DNA from: a virus
Virus record (IMG/VR): IMGVR_UViG_3300032326_001508
Location: 1 to 35,386 of that record
Strand: one strand, 5' to 3'
Length of the DNA stretch: 35,386 nt
The notes under the pieces are model-generated. The model searched no databases and was not told the origin of the DNA. It saw nothing but the letters and a program-made list of their open reading frames with translations. Below, piece after piece: positions 5,777 to 33,790 of this stretch (within the stretch, counting starts at the first letter, position 1; each line of letters begins with the position of its first letter). The translations under genes were made by a program, and so were the position numbers.

Positions 5777-6238
5777 TTAAATTATTGTTGCACCGACACC
5801 AGTTGGTGTTGTATTAGTTCCTTGTGCGACTAATGGACCACCAGCATTCGCACCAGTAACAGTTACATTTATTGACGCTGGTGCTATAGCACCTTGAACA
5901 CTAGCGTTATCTTGAATATGTTCTATAGTTGTTTTTGATGTGGCAACAAAAGCTGCCGCTACATTATTTCTTTGACCATGAGTTGCATCATCATTCATTG
6001 GTATACCTAAATCTGATTCTAACATTGTTAATGTGTCGGCAGCCAAGTTTCTTGGGCTCATACCAGGTTTTAATTTAGCACCAATCATAATTAATGCTGG
6101 TGGTATTTTTGTTGCTGGTTTTCTAACAGAATTGAAAACACTGGTAACTAAATCAAGTATTTGAGTTAGTTGAGTTAAATCAGTACCTTTTAAGTCTACT
6201 GACTTCTCATTTGATTTACATTCTTTATCTACACTCAT
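5777..6238 (-). CDS. Hypothetical virion-associated protein
   Basis: 153 residues. The N-terminal half is helical (LTQLTQILDLVTSVFNSV), the middle contains KIPPALIMIGAKLKPGMSP and NLAADTLTMLESDLGIP, and the last ~45 residues are rich in Ala, Gly, Thr and Val (APASINVTVTGANAGG). I do not recognise it. It lies 3 nt after the 508-aa gene and 4 nt before the 59-aa gene, in a run of tail or baseplate genes, so a minor structural role is the best guess. Confidence 0.6.
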   Translation of the reverse strand: MSVDKECKSNEKSVDLKGTDLTQLTQILDLVTSVFNSVRKPATKIPPALIMIGAKLKPGMSPRNLAADTLTMLESDLGIPMNDDATHGQRNNVAAAFVATSKTTIEHIQDNASVQGAIAPASINVTVTGANAGGPLVAQGTNTTPTGVGATII

Positions 6239-20185: not shown

Positions 20186-20902
20186 ATGATTATTTATAAA
20201 ACAACAAATTTAATTAATGGTAAAATTTATGTAGGTCAAGATTCTAAAAATAATTCTAGATATCTAGGTTCTGGTAAATTACTTAAATTAGCTATTGAAA
20301 AATATGGTAAAGAAAATTTTAAAAAAGAAATATTGGAACATTGTAAAACAAAAGAAGAATTAGATGAAAAAGAAAAATATTGGATTAATTTATTAAAATC
20401 TACTGATGGTAATATTGGTTATAATATAACATTTGGTGGTCAAACTGGATGGATGACTGGGATGAAACACAGTGAAGAAACCAAATTAATGTATTCATTA
20501 AAAAGAAAAGGGTTGTTAATTGGTGATAAAAACGGTATGTATGGTAAAAAACATACTGAAGAAGCTAAAAATAAAATTAGTAATCCTAAATTTGGTGATA
20601 AAAACGGTATGTATGGTAAAAAACATACTGAAGAAGCTAAAAATAAAATGAGAGAAAAATTAAGTGGTGATAAAAACCCATTTTATAATAAAAAACATAC
20701 CGATGAAACTAAAAAGAAATTGTCTGAAATGGCTAAAAAAAGAAAAACTAACCCAAACAGTAAAAAAGTATCTGTTGATGGGTTAGTTTTTAATAGTGCT
20801 TCAGAAGCTGCTAGATTTTTTGGGTTATCTACATCGACAATAAGTTACAGATGTAGAAAAAATACTTTTAATTGTTTTTATTTAACACCTGTACTACCAT
20901 AA
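20186..20902 (+). CDS. GIY-YIG homing endonuclease with NUMOD3 repeats
   Basis: 238 residues. IIYKTTNLINGKIYVGQDSKN (2-22) is the GIY-YIG motif in a variant (IYK..KIYVGQ) with Y..YVG and a following R25-LGSG. The N-terminal ~95 residues are the nuclease domain. Then come repeated NUMOD3-type modules (GDKNGMYGKKHTEEAKNKI, two near-identical copies plus a third divergent one) and a C-terminal NUMOD1-like helix-turn-helix (VFNSASEAARFFGLSTSTI). It is the only plus-strand gene inside the minus-strand cluster and overlaps the dUTPase end by 25 bases. No clear promoter is visible in the 109 bases before it. Confidence 0.85.
   Translation: MIIYKTTNLINGKIYVGQDSKNNSRYLGSGKLLKLAIEKYGKENFKKEILEHCKTKEELDEKEKYWINLLKSTDGNIGYNITFGGQTGWMTGMKHSEETKLMYSLKRKGLLIGDKNGMYGKKHTEEAKNKISNPKFGDKNGMYGKKHTEEAKNKMREKLSGDKNPFYNKKHTDETKKKLSEMAKKRKTNPNSKKVSVDGLVFNSASEAARFFGLSTSTISYRCRKNTFNCFYLTPVLP
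20520..20649 (+). repeat. 58-base direct repeat within the GIY-YIG gene
   Basis: Two exact copies (20520-20577 and 20592-20649) with a 72-base period encode the tandem NUMOD3 modules. Exact identity in the third codon positions indicates a recent duplication. Confidence 0.85.
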
Positions 20903-22484: not shown

Positions 22485-24938
22485 TTAAATTGTTTTTTCG
22501 GTTTCTTCAACAAAATTAACACTTTTTTTAGTTTCTAGCAAGTTTAAATACAATTCACGTCTTTTTTCTGTAACAGCTTTGATTGAATAAGTATCTTTAA
22601 CAGTATTATATAAATTTTCACCTAATACACCAATTAATTCAGGATTCTTAATTAATTTTTTAATATACTTATACCAATCTTTATGGTTTTTATTTTTATC
22701 AATTAAAAATGCATTACCTGTTGGGTCAAATTGAGCTTCATCATGTTTTGAACCTTTTGTCATAGCATGTTTTAAATCAAGTTGATATGGTCCGAAATCT
22801 TGCGCAATTAATGCTTTTTTATGGAATCCAGCTTCAATAACTTTTAATTGAGACTTCATTTTATTAAATTGGTTATCAACTAAAGGAGCTAAAGATACAT
22901 CAAATAAATTATAATTACCAGCATATGTATTAATAGGTTTTGTCCAAACTCTTCTGTACGGTTCATTTTGAACATTACTATATTCACCTTCTTTAAATGT
23001 TAATAAGAAATCTCTATATTCATCACTAACAATTTTATAATCATCAGTGAATATTTTTTCATATTGATACCAGATACTCTCGTGAGGTTTAATTGGTCTT
23101 TGTTGTTTATTACCAGTTTTTGGGTCAATAAAAGTTATTGTACCCCTTAAATCATAACCACATAATACAAACTGAGTTTTATCTAATAAATCTTCTGATT
23201 TTAATTTACCAACAATACCAGTTAATAATTTTAAATCTTCAACGTGTGAATTACCAATCCACATAGGTTTACCATTTCTTCTAACATAAATAATATGATT
23301 CTGTACTTCAACACAATAAACATTACCTTTGTAGTATCTATTATATTGGTCTTCTGTTTTAATTAATGGTGTATTTTTATTATGTTTACTAACACTAGGG
23401 TGTTTAGTGAAATTAATAACTAAAGAATCATATTGTGATTTAACTACTCTACCTTCAATTTGATTATTTCTTTTACCTCTATTTGTTATTGTTGCTGAAA
23501 TACCAATTTTTAATGCAATTTCTTGTAGGTTGTCCGCTAATGAAGGTGAACAAGTAAATGCTCTAGTTCTAGCATATTTATTATTTTCAATATGACCATC
23601 ACCTTTAATGAACCAGTCTAAAAACATTGTTAATTGTCTTGGTGATAAATCTAATACTTCTTGGGGTATAAATTTATCATATGCACCACCAAAATTAGAT
23701 AAGTATTCCCATAATTGTTTATCAAAAACTCTAACTTGTTTTTTATCTTTTGTATAAGTTGGATTGAAACCCATTTTAATTAATAAGTCATACATGTATG
23801 ATAAATACCCATTATCTTTTGCTTGTGCAATACCTACTTGGTGTAAACCCTTTGTCTTGCTAGTCCAACCTTCAGCCATCCAAAAACCAAAAAATTCTAA
23901 CCAATTATCCATATTAATATATCTATCAGAACCATATTTTTCAGACAATCCATTATAACGTTTTTTAGAAATTAATCTATCAATATAATTATCATTTTCT
24001 TCTAGTTGAACATATTTGTTTAACATAGGTAAAACAAAATATTCTTCTTCTTTACCAGACCATGACGCATTTTTTTTAATATGGAAATTTTTACCGTGTA
24101 TTTTTTCTGATTGAATTAATTCTAAATTCATTTTTTTATGTGTTAATGATTTAGCAACCGAGGCATACATATTGTGGTTTGGTGTTACCTCATATTCAAC
24201 TAAACCATTTTTAGCACAATTCAATTGACCATCAAATGGTTCACATATATATCCAGTCGGTTTATGATATTCTAATTCGTTTGTCTTAGGATTTAATGTT
24301 GCAACAGTTTCAGTTTGGTCTAACATATCAAATCTTTTCCAACCATCACTAGTTAAGATTTCAGTATCTGGAGTCATACAAGCTCCTCCGAGCCATCCAA
24401 TTCTAACTCTTTCAGAAGGTTCTGGGTTTGGTGAGAATTGTTTGGCTTTACCATCAATAGCATTTGGTAATACATGAACATGCTTGTTGTATTTTGAAAT
24501 CTCATTAGCAAATAAAGGTGTTGTTGTTATTACATGCTCAGCTGATTTAATATTGTCCAATATTTTTTCATCAATCTTATAAGTTTTAATAATGTGATAA
24601 GCTGGATGGTGTGTCCCTGGTGACCAATAATCATCCAAATCCATAATAGTAACAATACCTAATTTCTTAGTTCTTTCTAAAACGTTTCTAACATTTTCAT
24701 AAGGACCGATTGTTCTATGATAATGGATAATATCATATTGTTTAAGATATTCATCATTATCCAATTGTGGTTCATAATCAATGTCAACTTTAAATTCATT
24801 AGGGTAAAATTCTTCTAATGACACATGTGGGTTTATACTTCTAAAATAGCCTTAACCTACCCCAGTACGGTCAGAAGGTACTACTAGTACCTTGATGATT
24901 TGACCACCTGGGGTATTTGTTTTAATAATTTGTTTCAT
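22485..24938 (-). CDS. GT4-like glycosyltransferase with an intein and an in-frame TAA codon
   Basis: The frame from ATG 24938 reads MKQIIKTNTPGG...KVLVVPSDRTGVG, then TAA (24854-24852), then GYFRSINPH...SLEEFYPNEF without a change of frame. A GTG at 24824 gives an open frame but falls inside the conserved N-terminal strand, so I prefer 24938. The exteins form a GT-B enzyme: DIIHYHRTIGPYENV, VRIGWLGG, then SHVEDLKLL, VSLAPLVDNQFNKMKSQLKV and EAGFHKKALIAQDFGPYQ as the donor site. The intein lies between GGA and SHV. Peptide plus the TAA would normally give a 28-aa stub, so expression needs bypass, readthrough or re-initiation, or the stop is a mutation or an assembly error. A repeated sigma70-like motif lies upstream. 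Confidence 0.7.
23250..24380 (-). mobile_element. LAGLIDADG (DOD) intein in the glycosyltransferase
   Basis: 377 residues from Cys149 to Asn525 of the downstream frame (numbered from GTG 24824). It starts CMTPDTEILTSDGWKRF (block A) and has YEVTPNHNMY (block B, T214/H217). Two endonuclease motifs are FFGFWMAEG (311-319) and MFLDWFIKGDG (400-410). The C-terminal blocks are VYCVEVQNHIIYVRRNG and PMWIGN, with Ser+1 of the extein. The penultimate residue is Gly, not the usual His, so splicing may use a noncanonical assisting residue. Insertion follows the glycine-rich WLGGA motif. The insertion point of inteins is usually a conserved active site, as here. Confidence 0.85.
24852..24915 (-). promoter_or_regulatory. 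GC-rich extended hairpin directly before an in-frame GGT-TAA-GGC
   Basis: Read as RNA, stem 1 is UACCCCAG/CUGGGGUA (24908-24915 with 24858-24865), stem 2 GGUCA/UGACC (24901-24905 with 24869-24873), and stem 3 AAGGUAC/GUACCUU (24887-24893 with 24875-24881) with a UAGUA loop. The 3' arm ends at GUA, followed by GGU, UAA, GGC. The stretch is much richer in G and C than the window average. No U-run follows, so it is not an intrinsic terminator. Function is inferred: recoding signal or leader regulation. Confidence 0.6.
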
Positions 24939-24959
24939 ATTTATTTATTATTTTAAATT

Positions 24960-29851: not shown

Positions 29852-32800
29852 ATGAGTGGATTTAGAACAAAATTAGATTATTCGAACAATAGACAAATAA
29901 AACAATTTGAAAAAACCAATACTATTTTATCTGGGGGAACCAAATTTGGTTTACCTTTTAGTGCGTTAACCACTGGTCCTAATTTAGATTATAGTGCTGT
30001 TACAAACTCATATCTTTATGGTTTAAGTAGTTTTTCAGGTAATGATACAACAACAATATTTAATTGGTTTGATTCCAATATGCAAATCGCTGAATATGCT
30101 GTTACAGCTATAACTCCAACAACAAGTGCCGATACACAAGAAATAGAAAATATTTTTGTTGGTAATAATCAAAACACATTAGATGGTAATACATTTTATG
30201 TAGATTATAGCGGAATATCTTTTGATATTCATGTTAATTATATGATTGATTTGGGTGGCGGTAATTATAGCGGTACTGTTGAACATTCATATATAGATTT
30301 TTTAAGTGCTAGTAGTTTAGATTATCAATCTAGAACAATATGGATTGATAATCCAGAGATAACAAGAACTGATAGATTAATTATAACTAGAGAACCACAA
30401 ATTGGTTATGTATGGACTTGTATCGATTCTGAAGGTATGGGTGCATGGGCAGCAGTTTCTGGTGGTACAGGTTCAACTGGTACAACATCAACAATATGGA
30501 CAGCTGGTACTGGAAATAATTCAGCTGTATTAGGTGGTTCTGGTGGCGTGGCTAGTGGTGATTATTCGGTTTCAGAAGGATATCAAACAACAGCATCTGG
30601 TAATTATTCTCATGCTGAAGGTATATATACAATTTCTCAAGGTGAAAAAGCACATGCTGAAGGTGCTAATACAACAGCTAGTGGTTATGGTGCACATGCT
30701 GAAGGTGGTGCTACAATCGCTAGTGGTGAATCATCTCATGCTGAAGGTAATAGTACGATGGCAATAGGTAATGATTCACACGCTGAAGGTAATGGTACAA
30801 CATCGTTTGGTTCACAGTCACATGCTGAAGGTGAAGGTACAACAGCTAGTGGGGTTAGTTCACATGCTGAGGGTAGATATACAACTGCTAATGGTACTAG
30901 TTCACATACTGAAGGTAATTATACAACAGCAAGTGGTAATTATGCTCATGCTGAAGGTTTTGGTTCAGTAGCTGGTATTGAAATAATTGGTAGTGAAATA
31001 ACATATATTAATGATTATTCACATGCTGAAGGTAAATATACAACAGCTAGTGGTACTGCTTCGCATAGTGAAGGTAATTATACGATATCATTAGGTGAAT
31101 ATTCACACGCTGAAGGTAACATTACATTTTCTCAAGGCGATTATTCGCATGCTGAAGGTCATAATACAACAGCTAGTGGTTCTACATCACATGCTGAAGG
31201 GTATTATTCAATAGCTATTGGTAATTATTCACACGCTGAAGGTTATAATACTGTAGCTACTTCTGATTATTCGCACGCTGAAGGTTATTTTACTAATTCT
31301 AATGGTAGTTATTCACACGCTGAAGGTAATCAAACTTTAGCTAGTGGTTCTACATCTCACGCTGAAGGTGCTCAAACAACTGCTGGTGGTGATTATTCTC
31401 ATACTGAAGGTGTTTTTACAACAGCTATTGGTGAGCAATCACACGCTGAAGGTTATTGGACAACAGCTATTGGTAATGCTTCATCAGCTATTGGTGCTCA
31501 TACAACAGCTAGTGGATATGCGTCACATGCTGAAGGTTATAATACAGTTGCTAGTAATTACCAATCACATGCTGAAGGTAATAGTACAACCGCTAGTGGG
31601 TATTATTCTCATGCTGAAGGGTATCATACAACAGCTAGTGGTTATTCATCACATGCTGAAGGTGGTAATACAATAGCTAATGGTTATTATTCTCATGGTG
31701 AAGGTTATGATACAAATTCATTTGGTTATAGTTCACATGCTGAAGGTGGTCAAACAACAGCTGGTTGGTTAGGGTTTGAGATAGATACTGTTGTTAATGG
31801 AGTGATAACGTTAACTGCGATGTATGGTGACGTTACAACTGAATTTACTGGTGGTGAAGTAACACTTGAAAGAATTACGTATATTGACTATTATCCATAT
31901 AGTTCAGTTTCTTTTAGTTCAGGTACTAATACTGAAATATTTTTAAATGATACCACAATAAACGATGGTATGTATGTAGCTGACACTACTAATATGTTTA
32001 GTACATATGCTGGTATTTCATTAATGATAAGTAGAGGTGATATGTCTCATTCCGAAGGTGCTGGGACTAGAGCTTTGGCTGCGTATTCACATGTTGAAGG
32101 TGTTTCTAATTGGGGTTTTGGTATTGCTTCGCATGTTGAAGGGCAACTTACAATGGCTTTTGGTAAAGGTTCACATGCTGAAGGTAGACAAACAACAACA
32201 TATGGTGACTATTCACATATTGGTGGTCGTTTATCTTCGTTAACTGGTCATACATCATTTTTACATTCTTCTGGGTCAACTCTTAACTCAGCTGGTTCAG
32301 TTATTTTGGGTGGTCATACAAATTCAATTACACTTAACTCTAATTTATCAGCAATTATAGGTGGTTATTCTAATATAATATCTGGTCATACAAGTTCATT
32401 CATAGGTGGTGGTTATAATAATATAATTGATGAATCTAATTTACCTACTTCAAACGTTAACGAAGTAATTATGGGTGGTCAAAATAATTTAATCAATGGT
32501 TCTCAAAATGCTGGTATTTATTCATCTAGTGGTAGTGATTTATTATTTGCACCATATTCAACAATAGTAGGTGGTAGTAATAATCATATTGGTTTAACTA
32601 CAGCCACATTTAGTGGTGATGCTTTTGAATCAGCTTCAGCAATTCTTGGTGGTAGTAATAATAGTATATATTCTAATACAATAGTTGGTGTATCTAATAA
32701 AAGTAATATAATTGTTGGTGGTAATAATAATGCTATAAATTCTGAAACAGTTTTTCAATCTAGTATTTTAAATGGTCTATATAATACTATAGAAGTTAGT

Positions 32801-33790
32801 TCATTATCAACGATTATAGGTGGTAATACTAATAGTATTGCTTCAGGTAGTACAGCATCTTCAATTGTTGGTGGTGGTGTTAATACAATATATAATCCAG
32901 ATTTTTCAGTATTATTAGGTGGTCAATATAATACTTTAAGCGGTGTTAATACAAATAATGTTTCTATTATAGGTGGTACTGGAAATACAATAGGTACTGT
33001 AAGTAGTTATTCAGTTATTGTTGGTGGTATTAATAATGGTATATTGAATGCTGAACGAAGTGTTGTTATAGGTGGTAATAATATTACAGCAACTACTAGT
33101 GATACTGTATATGTACCTGATTTAGTTATTGATGGTTTAACATCTACTGACCCTATTGCAACTAATTCTAGTGGTAAAATAGTAGCTGGTACTTCTGATG
33201 CTAGACTTAAACAAAATATTAATCAATTAAATAATTCTTTAGATATAATTAAGAATCTTAGAGGAGTTTCCTTTGAATATACACCAGAATCTGAAATGGG
33301 TGATGGTATAAGATATGGATTTATCGCACAAGAAGTTCAGAGATTTATACCTGAAATTGTTAGAAATAGAGCTAAAGGTGATGGTATGTTATCATTAAAT
33401 TATAATGAGATTGTACCATTACTAGTTGAAGCGGTTAAAGAATTATCAACTGGAACAACAAATAATACTTATTTAAGAACACAAACAATATTAGCCGAAG
33501 ATAATAACATTGATTTAAATTATAATGGTACACAAGAAACTTCAATAAGTGGCGGATTACGAGTATTAAATGCAAAAGGTGAAAATTTAAATGCTGAATT
33601 AATCACAGATGAAAATGGTGATTTTATCACAAATAATGACTTTAAACCTAATTCATTAACAATTCCATTTTATAAACCAACATCTTCTGAAGATAAAAAT
33701 GGTAAAGAAGGTAACATAACTAGAGATGACGAATATTTATATATTAAAACCTCAAATGGTTGGGGAAGAACTAAATTGGAAAGCTTTTAA
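29852..33790 (+). CDS. Long tail fibre with YadA-like SHAEG repeats and peptidase S74 chaperone domain
   Basis: 1312 residues. Residues ~1-230 are a beta-rich anchor (SGFRTKLDYSNNRQIKQFE start). About 30 tandem SHAEG-type repeats with ~14-residue period (for example TTASGNYSHAEGIYTIS) form YadA/Hia head-like trimeric beta-roll structure. A second array of xIxGGxNN repeats (about 810-1080) follows. SDARLKQNI (1115-1123) starts an S74 intramolecular chaperone: S1115 and K1120 are the expected Ser-Lys dyad for self-cleavage, then YGFIAQEVQRFIPEIV and YNEIVPLLVEAVKEL. A further 111 residues lie after the S74 core. The gene opens the rightward late unit. Confidence 0.85.
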   Translation: MSGFRTKLDYSNNRQIKQFEKTNTILSGGTKFGLPFSALTTGPNLDYSAVTNSYLYGLSSFSGNDTTTIFNWFDSNMQIAEYAVTAITPTTSADTQEIENIFVGNNQNTLDGNTFYVDYSGISFDIHVNYMIDLGGGNYSGTVEHSYIDFLSASSLDYQSRTIWIDNPEITRTDRLIITREPQIGYVWTCIDSEGMGAWAAVSGGTGSTGTTSTIWTAGTGNNSAVLGGSGGVASGDYSVSEGYQTTASGNYSHAEGIYTISQGEKAHAEGANTTASGYGAHAEGGATIASGESSHAEGNSTMAIGNDSHAEGNGTTSFGSQSHAEGEGTTASGVSSHAEGRYTTANGTSSHTEGNYTTASGNYAHAEGFGSVAGIEIIGSEITYINDYSHAEGKYTTASGTASHSEGNYTISLGEYSHAEGNITFSQGDYSHAEGHNTTASGSTSHAEGYYSIAIGNYSHAEGYNTVATSDYSHAEGYFTNSNGSYSHAEGNQTLASGSTSHAEGAQTTAGGDYSHTEGVFTTAIGEQSHAEGYWTTAIGNASSAIGAHTTASGYASHAEGYNTVASNYQSHAEGNSTTASGYYSHAEGYHTTASGYSSHAEGGNTIANGYYSHGEGYDTNSFGYSSHAEGGQTTAGWLGFEIDTVVNGVITLTAMYGDVTTEFTGGEVTLERITYIDYYPYSSVSFSSGTNTEIFLNDTTINDGMYVADTTNMFSTYAGISLMISRGDMSHSEGAGTRALAAYSHVEGVSNWGFGIASHVEGQLTMAFGKGSHAEGRQTTTYGDYSHIGGRLSSLTGHTSFLHSSGSTLNSAGSVILGGHTNSITLNSNLSAIIGGYSNIISGHTSSFIGGGYNNIIDESNLPTSNVNEVIMGGQNNLINGSQNAGIYSSSGSDLLFAPYSTIVGGSNNHIGLTTATFSGDAFESASAILGGSNNSIYSNTIVGVSNKSNIIVGGNNNAINSETVFQSSILNGLYNTIEVSSLSTIIGGNTNSIASGSTASSIVGGGVNTIYNPDFSVLLGGQYNTLSGVNTNNVSIIGGTGNTIGTVSSYSVIVGGINNGILNAERSVVIGGNNITATTSDTVYVPDLVIDGLTSTDPIATNSSGKIVAGTSDARLKQNINQLNNSLDIIKNLRGVSFEYTPESEMGDGIRYGFIAQEVQRFIPEIVRNRAKGDGMLSLNYNEIVPLLVEAVKELSTGTTNNTYLRTQTILAEDNNIDLNYNGTQETSISGGLRVLNAKGENLNAELITDENGDFITNNDFKPNSLTIPFYKPTSSEDKNGKEGNITRDDEYLYIKTSNGWGRTKLESF
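30603..32226 (+). repeat. SHAEG tandem repeat array of the fibre gene
   Basis: About 30 repeats of roughly 42 bases encoding x-S-H-A-E-G-x-x-T-T-A-S-G. One spacer of ~20 residues follows the ninth copy, and one ~95-residue insert (31757-32041) interrupts the array before the last four copies. Confidence 0.8.

Follow-up and report, generated by a model that had tools for sequence, protein, structure and literature searches.

Recurrent stop codons, stems and repeated codons in phage glycosyltransferase genes point to a homing cassette probably tolerated through translational bypassing

The window analysed here, a 35,386-nt stretch of viral DNA (IMG/VR record IMGVR_UViG_3300032326_001508, taken at full length), contains a glycosyltransferase (GT) gene with a stop codon a short way into its reading frame, which raises the question of whether the complete protein is still made and, if so, how. 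The gene lies on the minus strand, where the frame opens with an ATG at 24938, reads MKQIIKTNTPGGQIIKVLVVPSDRTGVG and then meets a TAA at 24852-24854. Past this stop the same frame reads GYFRSINPHV and runs on to 22485. A first-pass annotation had described a stop inside an otherwise unbroken GT frame followed by a candidate landing codon, and we confirm this description, with GGC at 24849-24851 directly after the stop and YFRSINPHV next. Its assignment of the gene to the glycosyltransferases is backed by a match to phrog_7162.

The interrupted gene and its relatives

All features of the locus are on the minus strand. The start codon (24936-24938) opens a substitute GT N-terminus of 28 codons (ORF1), and the position of the start relative to the stem is equal in the other elements described below. 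The stem is built from the coding sequence in three tiers, with outer, middle and apical 5' arms at 24908-24915 (TACCCCAG), 24901-24906 (TGGTCA) and 24886-24893 (AAGGTACT), and apical, middle and outer 3' arms at 24875-24882 (AGTACCTT), 24868-24873 (TGACCG) and 24858-24865 (CTGGGGTA). The tiers had been given as 8, 5 and 7 bp; the outer 8 bp hold, while the middle tier is really 6 bp and the apical one 8 bp. The outer 3' arm encodes TGV, using the rare Gly codon GGG, and abuts the putative take-off codon GGT (24855-24857). The TAA makes up the entire 3-nt gap, and the GGC that follows is the candidate landing codon, at which the tRNA would re-pair without a second translation of the codon. The remainder of the GT, from TAT onward (YFRS; 22485-24848), carries the phrog_7162 match and is interrupted by a LAGLIDADG intein of 377 aa (C...GN/S; 23250-24380) that lies outside the hop element. 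A tRNA search found none.

A search of IMG/VR proteins with the part of the GT after the stop returned 208 relatives, 80 of which were kept. Most of these begin with an uninterrupted MKK(I/L)KVLVVPSDRTGV[GS]YFRS, the starts being translated in the GT frame, but in about ten distinct relatives from this first search the frame breaks exactly at the break point of the window. At the DNA level the broken relatives have the same N-terminal extension and stem as the window, a Gly or Ser codon, an immediate stop and a like codon a few bases later. Further routes were a filtered scan for the stem-plus-stop pattern, a second search with a diverged member, and a scan that used a profile of the neighbouring endonuclease. 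The totals are 36 distinct elements, window included, against 93 distinct intact IMG/VR relatives without the stop; 25 of the elements are the window itself or came through GT homology, 4 through endonuclease homology and 7 through the stem-and-stop pattern only, a route that presupposes both features. All 36 are metagenomic sequences, drawn from many separate metagenomes, and all sit at the identical codon position of the same glycosyltransferase. Several copies were assembled repeatedly from different datasets (e.g. L040, L041 and L043). Because it recurs in 36 distinct sequences from many metagenomes, the arrangement is far beyond chance.

The relatives without a stop that the first-pass annotation would have counted against a bypass do exist, but they have neither a comparable stem nor the N-terminal extension and represent the uninserted allele. 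Every relative that carries the stop retains the stem together with a landing codon, which is exactly cognate in 34 elements out of 36. Among annotated phages we found only distant GTs and distant Vsr-like endonucleases, and no isolate with the element. A scan of GTDB genomes gave four relatives, three with intact N-termini at the site and a fourth too diverged for comparison.

Other genes of the window were also observed, all on the plus strand. A GIY-YIG / NUMOD3 / I-TevI-like homing endonuclease gene (20186-20902) adjoins a dUTPase-like gene. A 565-aa protein (605-2302) has matches to the Ros/MucR zinc finger, weakly to the MTES_1575 nuclease, and to Mom, a DNA-modifying acetyltransferase, an unusual combination in one chain. 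Additionally, a large tail-fibre-like protein with many SHAEG repeats is encoded at 29852-33790.

Stem, gap and repeated codon

In the window, the folding energy of the 161 nt around the stem is -35 kcal/mol (z = -2.5), a value that only 2 of 200 shuffles matched. Across the family, the 75 nt upstream of take-off fold at -23.4 to -33.0 kcal/mol in the elements and at -1.7 to -16.3 kcal/mol in the intact genes, with no overlap; the same 75-nt window of T4 gene 60 gives -12.9 kcal/mol. None of the 93 intact relatives has a stem of comparable stability. The striking GC content noted in the first-pass annotation stands out across the family as well: the last 60 nt before take-off average 49% GC in the elements against 30% both in intact relatives and in the GT gene itself. 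Between the 3' strand of the stem and the take-off codon lie 0 nt in 25 elements, 1 nt in 10 and 2 nt in 1. As read from the sequences, the elements carry a stem upstream of take-off that would be able to re-form behind the ribosome. Its outer helix takes up the 10 nt immediately ahead of take-off, and the inner helices are located farther upstream than position -11.

The stem covaries. Its covariation score is 0.280, compared with 0.125 +/- 0.013 in shuffles (0 of 500 reach it) and at most 0.061 in slid controls. These values come from anchoring each sequence on its own fold, which replaced RNAalifold on a plain MAFFT alignment; the latter recovered only 6 pairs, since it brings the 5' arms of the two subfamilies out of register. 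At the third position of the Val codon, which is free in the protein, covariation with the 5' arm takes the form of a G-C, C-G, A-U or U-A pair in most members. The Gly codon preceding it is GGG in 34 of 36 elements versus 8 of 93 intact genes, and in the two exceptions, L208 (GGC) and L265 (GGA), the 5' arms compensate. One further relative, L067, is an intact GT with no stop but with a longer N-terminus and a decayed 5' arm, about 110 nt before position 6001. It looks like an element that has lost its gap, and the decay of its arm would be expected if the stem were needed solely for crossing a gap.

A stop follows the take-off codon directly in all 36 elements (TGA in 19, TAA in 16 and TAG in 1). 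The gap measures 3 nt in 22 elements, the window among them, and elsewhere 2 nt (L108, L235), 4 nt (L025, L030, L070), 5 nt (L012, L019, L021, L054, L077), 6 nt (L042) or 8 nt (L208, L230, L239). Take-off codons are GGY in 27 elements and AGY in 9. The landing codon belongs to the same family in 35 of 36; the imperfect landings are L077, where AGC to AGA leaves a wobble mismatch, and L144, where AGT to GGC may allow a G-U pair. The match between take-off and landing codon families is significant (Fisher 3e-7), although the repeat is partly to be expected from a cassette that brings its own copy of the GT start, and may in part reflect duplication rather than selection for a hop. In every case the copied start and the original share exactly one codon, as a hop would require. 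A single slide from codon to repeat always yields TGV[GS]XFRS at the length of the intact protein (36/36).

From these patterns we infer the hop itself. A hop to the repeated codon would be the only reading that always restores the normal protein, and the jump from GGT to GGC with removal of six bases, as put forward for the window in the first-pass annotation, is supported as the only reading that would also cover relatives with gaps of 2, 4, 5, 6 and 8 nt.

Insertion, endonuclease and retention of the gene

The element is present and absent at one site, with clean boundaries, in the close relatives L025 and L028. Their flanks are identical, as is the GT start ATGAAAAAATTAAAA...GGTGTAAGCTACTT, after which about 1 kb is found in L025 only. 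This insert comprises an endonuclease gene, a new ATG and a codon-altered GT start with the stem and AGC TGAA; downstream of it follows AGCTACTTCCG..., with the GT continuing unchanged. Three further loci (L019/L135, L040/L155 and L108/L127) likewise have a remnant of the old GT start in front of the endonuclease, and in all four loci these remnants end at the same [GS][YF] codons. The distribution of the element is scattered: on a GT tree built without the element columns (141 columns, many forks unresolved), its presence needs 27 changes against 28.2 for shuffled labels. Independently of the tree, five close pairs differ in the element (L025/L028, L012/L017, L221/L195, L208/L201 and L196/L193).

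A gene for an endonuclease of a long class lies directly upstream of the GT, with up to about 20 nt of overlap between its frame and the start of the GT. It adjoins 19 of the 31 scorable elements and is missing beside all 82 intact GTs that have 1 kb or more of upstream sequence (Fisher 8e-14). The protein, about 250-305 aa long, begins with a helix-turn-helix-like region and contains conserved CxxC pairs, NUMOD3 and, towards its C-terminus, a nuclease domain with weak MTES_1575 matches; NUMOD3 (Pfam) is above cut-off in most members. For an AlphaFold model (pLDDT 80.8) the best match is 3r3p, the catalytic domain of the homing endonuclease I-Bth0305I (TM 0.74 over the target; E 1.1e-3), with Vsr as the next-best fold match, in agreement with a Vsr annotation in Tenacibaculum phage PTm1. 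The enzyme is accordingly predicted, from its modelled structure, to be a Vsr-like homing endonuclease with an I-Bth0305I-like fold. A profile scan saw no endonucleases at other genes with an equal hop site.

The copy in the window has lost the endonuclease gene. Elements without it often retain relics of its last codons, clear in L196 and weaker in L021 and in the window, where a probable C-terminal relic (KIINKYETNY*, or FKIINKYETNY* over its whole extent of 24922-24957) overlaps the GT start in the frame offset seen at endonuclease-bearing loci. Its certainty is only moderate because it is short and AT-rich.

A shorter class of this Vsr-like endonuclease (about 252 aa) was observed directly before intact, stop-less GTs (L183, L201, L219, L240, L270-L281 and L304). 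These enzymes are not counted with the endonucleases of the elements, being a separate class with no bypass at their GTs. Most GTs beside them have the Arg of SDRTGV replaced, which is perhaps another route to resistance against cutting.

Could the GT be dead, or be translated from a downstream start only, with the element as an inactivating insertion? An ORF listing does pick a GTG at 24824 in the window. However, wherever the contig includes the end of the gene, the frame after landing spans 376-406 codons, or 762-786 in the intein-bearing elements, and dN/dS across the gene is 0.04-0.14, indicating purifying selection (0.075 for L230/L239 and 0.044 for L121/L158, pairs in which both members carry the element). 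The substitute N-terminus keeps its amino acids despite altered codons; ORF1, of about 26-29 aa in the elements, is conserved in sequence, though it is also constrained by the stem and the GT. In half of the elements (18/36) the first 50 codons past landing offer no in-frame ATG, and the residues from the landing codon to any such start show the same conservation as their counterparts in intact genes, so that a downstream restart is unlikely and the whole of this explanation improbable. As a separate observation, GTs of intein length (762-786 codons) make up 7 of 30 complete element-bearing genes and about 5 of 86 intact ones, which marks the GT as a hot spot for homing elements.

The remaining alternatives concern how the gap is dealt with. 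Stop-codon readthrough, by which the stop would be decoded and the GT would gain two residues in the TGVG loop, would be in frame for the window and for 23 of the 36 elements (gaps of 3 or 6 nt), most of these being the 22 with a 3-nt gap. Simple readthrough is excluded because some gap lengths are not multiples of three: 13 elements (2, 4, 5 and 8 nt) are out of frame, yet they do not differ from the others in stem, codon pair or endonuclease. All three stop codons (TAA, TGA and TAG) occur, and no intact relative has an insertion in the Gly-rich loop. We therefore regard readthrough as unlikely. Separate events in each lineage, with +1 or -1 frameshifts and readthrough all stimulated by the stem, could suit each gap taken singly at the cost of a few extra residues; a given shift would serve only part of the family, three mechanisms would be required for one homologous signal, and the repeated codon and constant product length would be left unexplained, which makes this quite improbable as well. 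Removal at the RNA level, whether by a very small intron, by editing or by slippage of the polymerase at the gap, has a very small probability. A deletion of 5-11 nt in the RNA would yield the same protein, but splice, intron and homopolymer features are absent, the gaps, of six lengths, share no sequence except the stop, and that stop always comes right after the take-off codon, a position relevant to the ribosome only. Finally, the nonsense mutation or assembly error in a single contig that the first-pass annotation allowed for is refuted by 36 distinct sequences from many metagenomes, several independent assemblies and covarying stems, and retains practically no probability.

Proposed mechanism and known systems

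We consider it very probable that the window holds an endonuclease-less copy of a mobile homing cassette, and that programmed translational bypassing keeps the host gene unharmed. It also appears likely that such cassettes form a widespread class, independent of T4, that hides by ribosome hopping and not by RNA or protein splicing, with natural, stem-driven stop-hops of 5-11 nt in dozens of phages. The full cassette, placed at the YF codons within the motif SDRTGV[GS]YF, would consist of a Vsr-like (I-Bth0305I-type) endonuclease gene, a substitute, codon-altered GT start and the hop site. In the proposed course of events, the ribosome would translate the substitute N-terminus up to the take-off codon and meet the stop, with the inner helices already re-formed behind it. 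The outer helix of 8-10 bp would then zipper, its 3' strand within the mRNA channel of the ribosome, and pull on the mRNA. From its position, completion of this helix would draw in roughly the length of mRNA needed for the hop (5-11 nt). Peptidyl-tRNA-Gly (or -Ser) would unpair, slide over the gap plus landing codon and re-pair at the landing codon, and translation would restart at Y, F or K to give exactly the residues of the uninserted protein (for kinetics, see PMC11194080).

That the stem pulls, and that the gap is there for the sake of immunity, we infer. Such homing endonucleases are often tolerant of synonymous changes, so that a few bases inserted beside the insertion point would be the simplest way of spoiling the site; the gap bases most likely render the filled site resistant to the endonuclease of the cassette. 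The 50-nt insert of T4 is likewise read as site protection in PMC5009743 and in Bonocora 2011 as reported through PMC4592705.

The analogy with T4 gene 60 drawn in the first-pass annotation extends further than the hop site, since a homing endonuclease gene accompanies it here as mobA does in T4 (Bonocora et al., cited as ref. 69 of PMC4592705). Both systems have a take-off codon (Gly in T4, Gly or Ser in the GT elements) with an immediate stop, a matching landing codon, an upstream stem-loop in the coding sequence and an adjoining homing endonuclease gene. In addition, 60.1 overlaps gene 60 by 20 nt (NC_000866), similar to the overlap of up to about 20 nt between endonuclease and GT. In contrast, the T4 jump spans 50 nt, with a take-off stem-loop and stop in the gap, whereas the GT elements would jump 5-11 nt and their gaps of 2-8 nt leave no room for a stem; the GT stem ends before take-off, and no stem-loop including the take-off codon and gap bases was found. 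MobA is an HNH enzyme and the GT-cassette endonuclease is Vsr-like, so the latter is no descendant of the endonuclease of the T4 cassette. T4 60.1 has no Pfam match, and no link between it and the GT-cassette endonuclease was found. The GT cassette is probably independent of that of T4 in origin. Furthermore, the T4 bypass is a single case with no relatives described (PMC3014915), against dozens of GT elements.

Closest to the 3-nt-gap class are the synthetic 'stop-hops' of Weiss et al. 1987, as described in PMC5009743, where matched codons around a stop let 9 nt be read as one amino acid; those were constructs in E. coli, and the GT elements are natural phage genes. Natural in-frame stop hopping is stated to be unknown in PMC5009743, and we found no later report of natural short stop-hops in a full-text literature of incomplete coverage. 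The byps of Magnusiomyces capitatus mitochondria are also numerous bypass insertions for which a mobile-element origin has been suggested (Lang et al. 2014; PMC5009743 and PMC4592705). They differ in using mitochondrial ribosomes and in being thought independent of mRNA context, while the GT elements have a constant stem at one constant site in phage genes. With I-Bth0305I and other Vsr-like homing endonucleases (PDB 3r3p), the GT-cassette enzyme shares the predicted fold of its C-terminal domain; it differs in having NUMOD3 and two conserved CxxC pairs before the nuclease domain, and in a gene coupled to a bypass site.

Efficient phage bypassing is known from one case, T4 gene 60. The GT family offers 36 natural variants, a comparative system that spans both Gly and Ser take-off families, all three stop codons and gaps of six lengths, in which the constant parts are the stem abutting take-off, the stop and the repeated codon, and in which the model of the stem as a motor is directly testable. 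It also suggests that evolution has paired homing endonucleases with bypassing more than once, which would give homing elements a third option, next to introns and inteins, for residing inside a gene.
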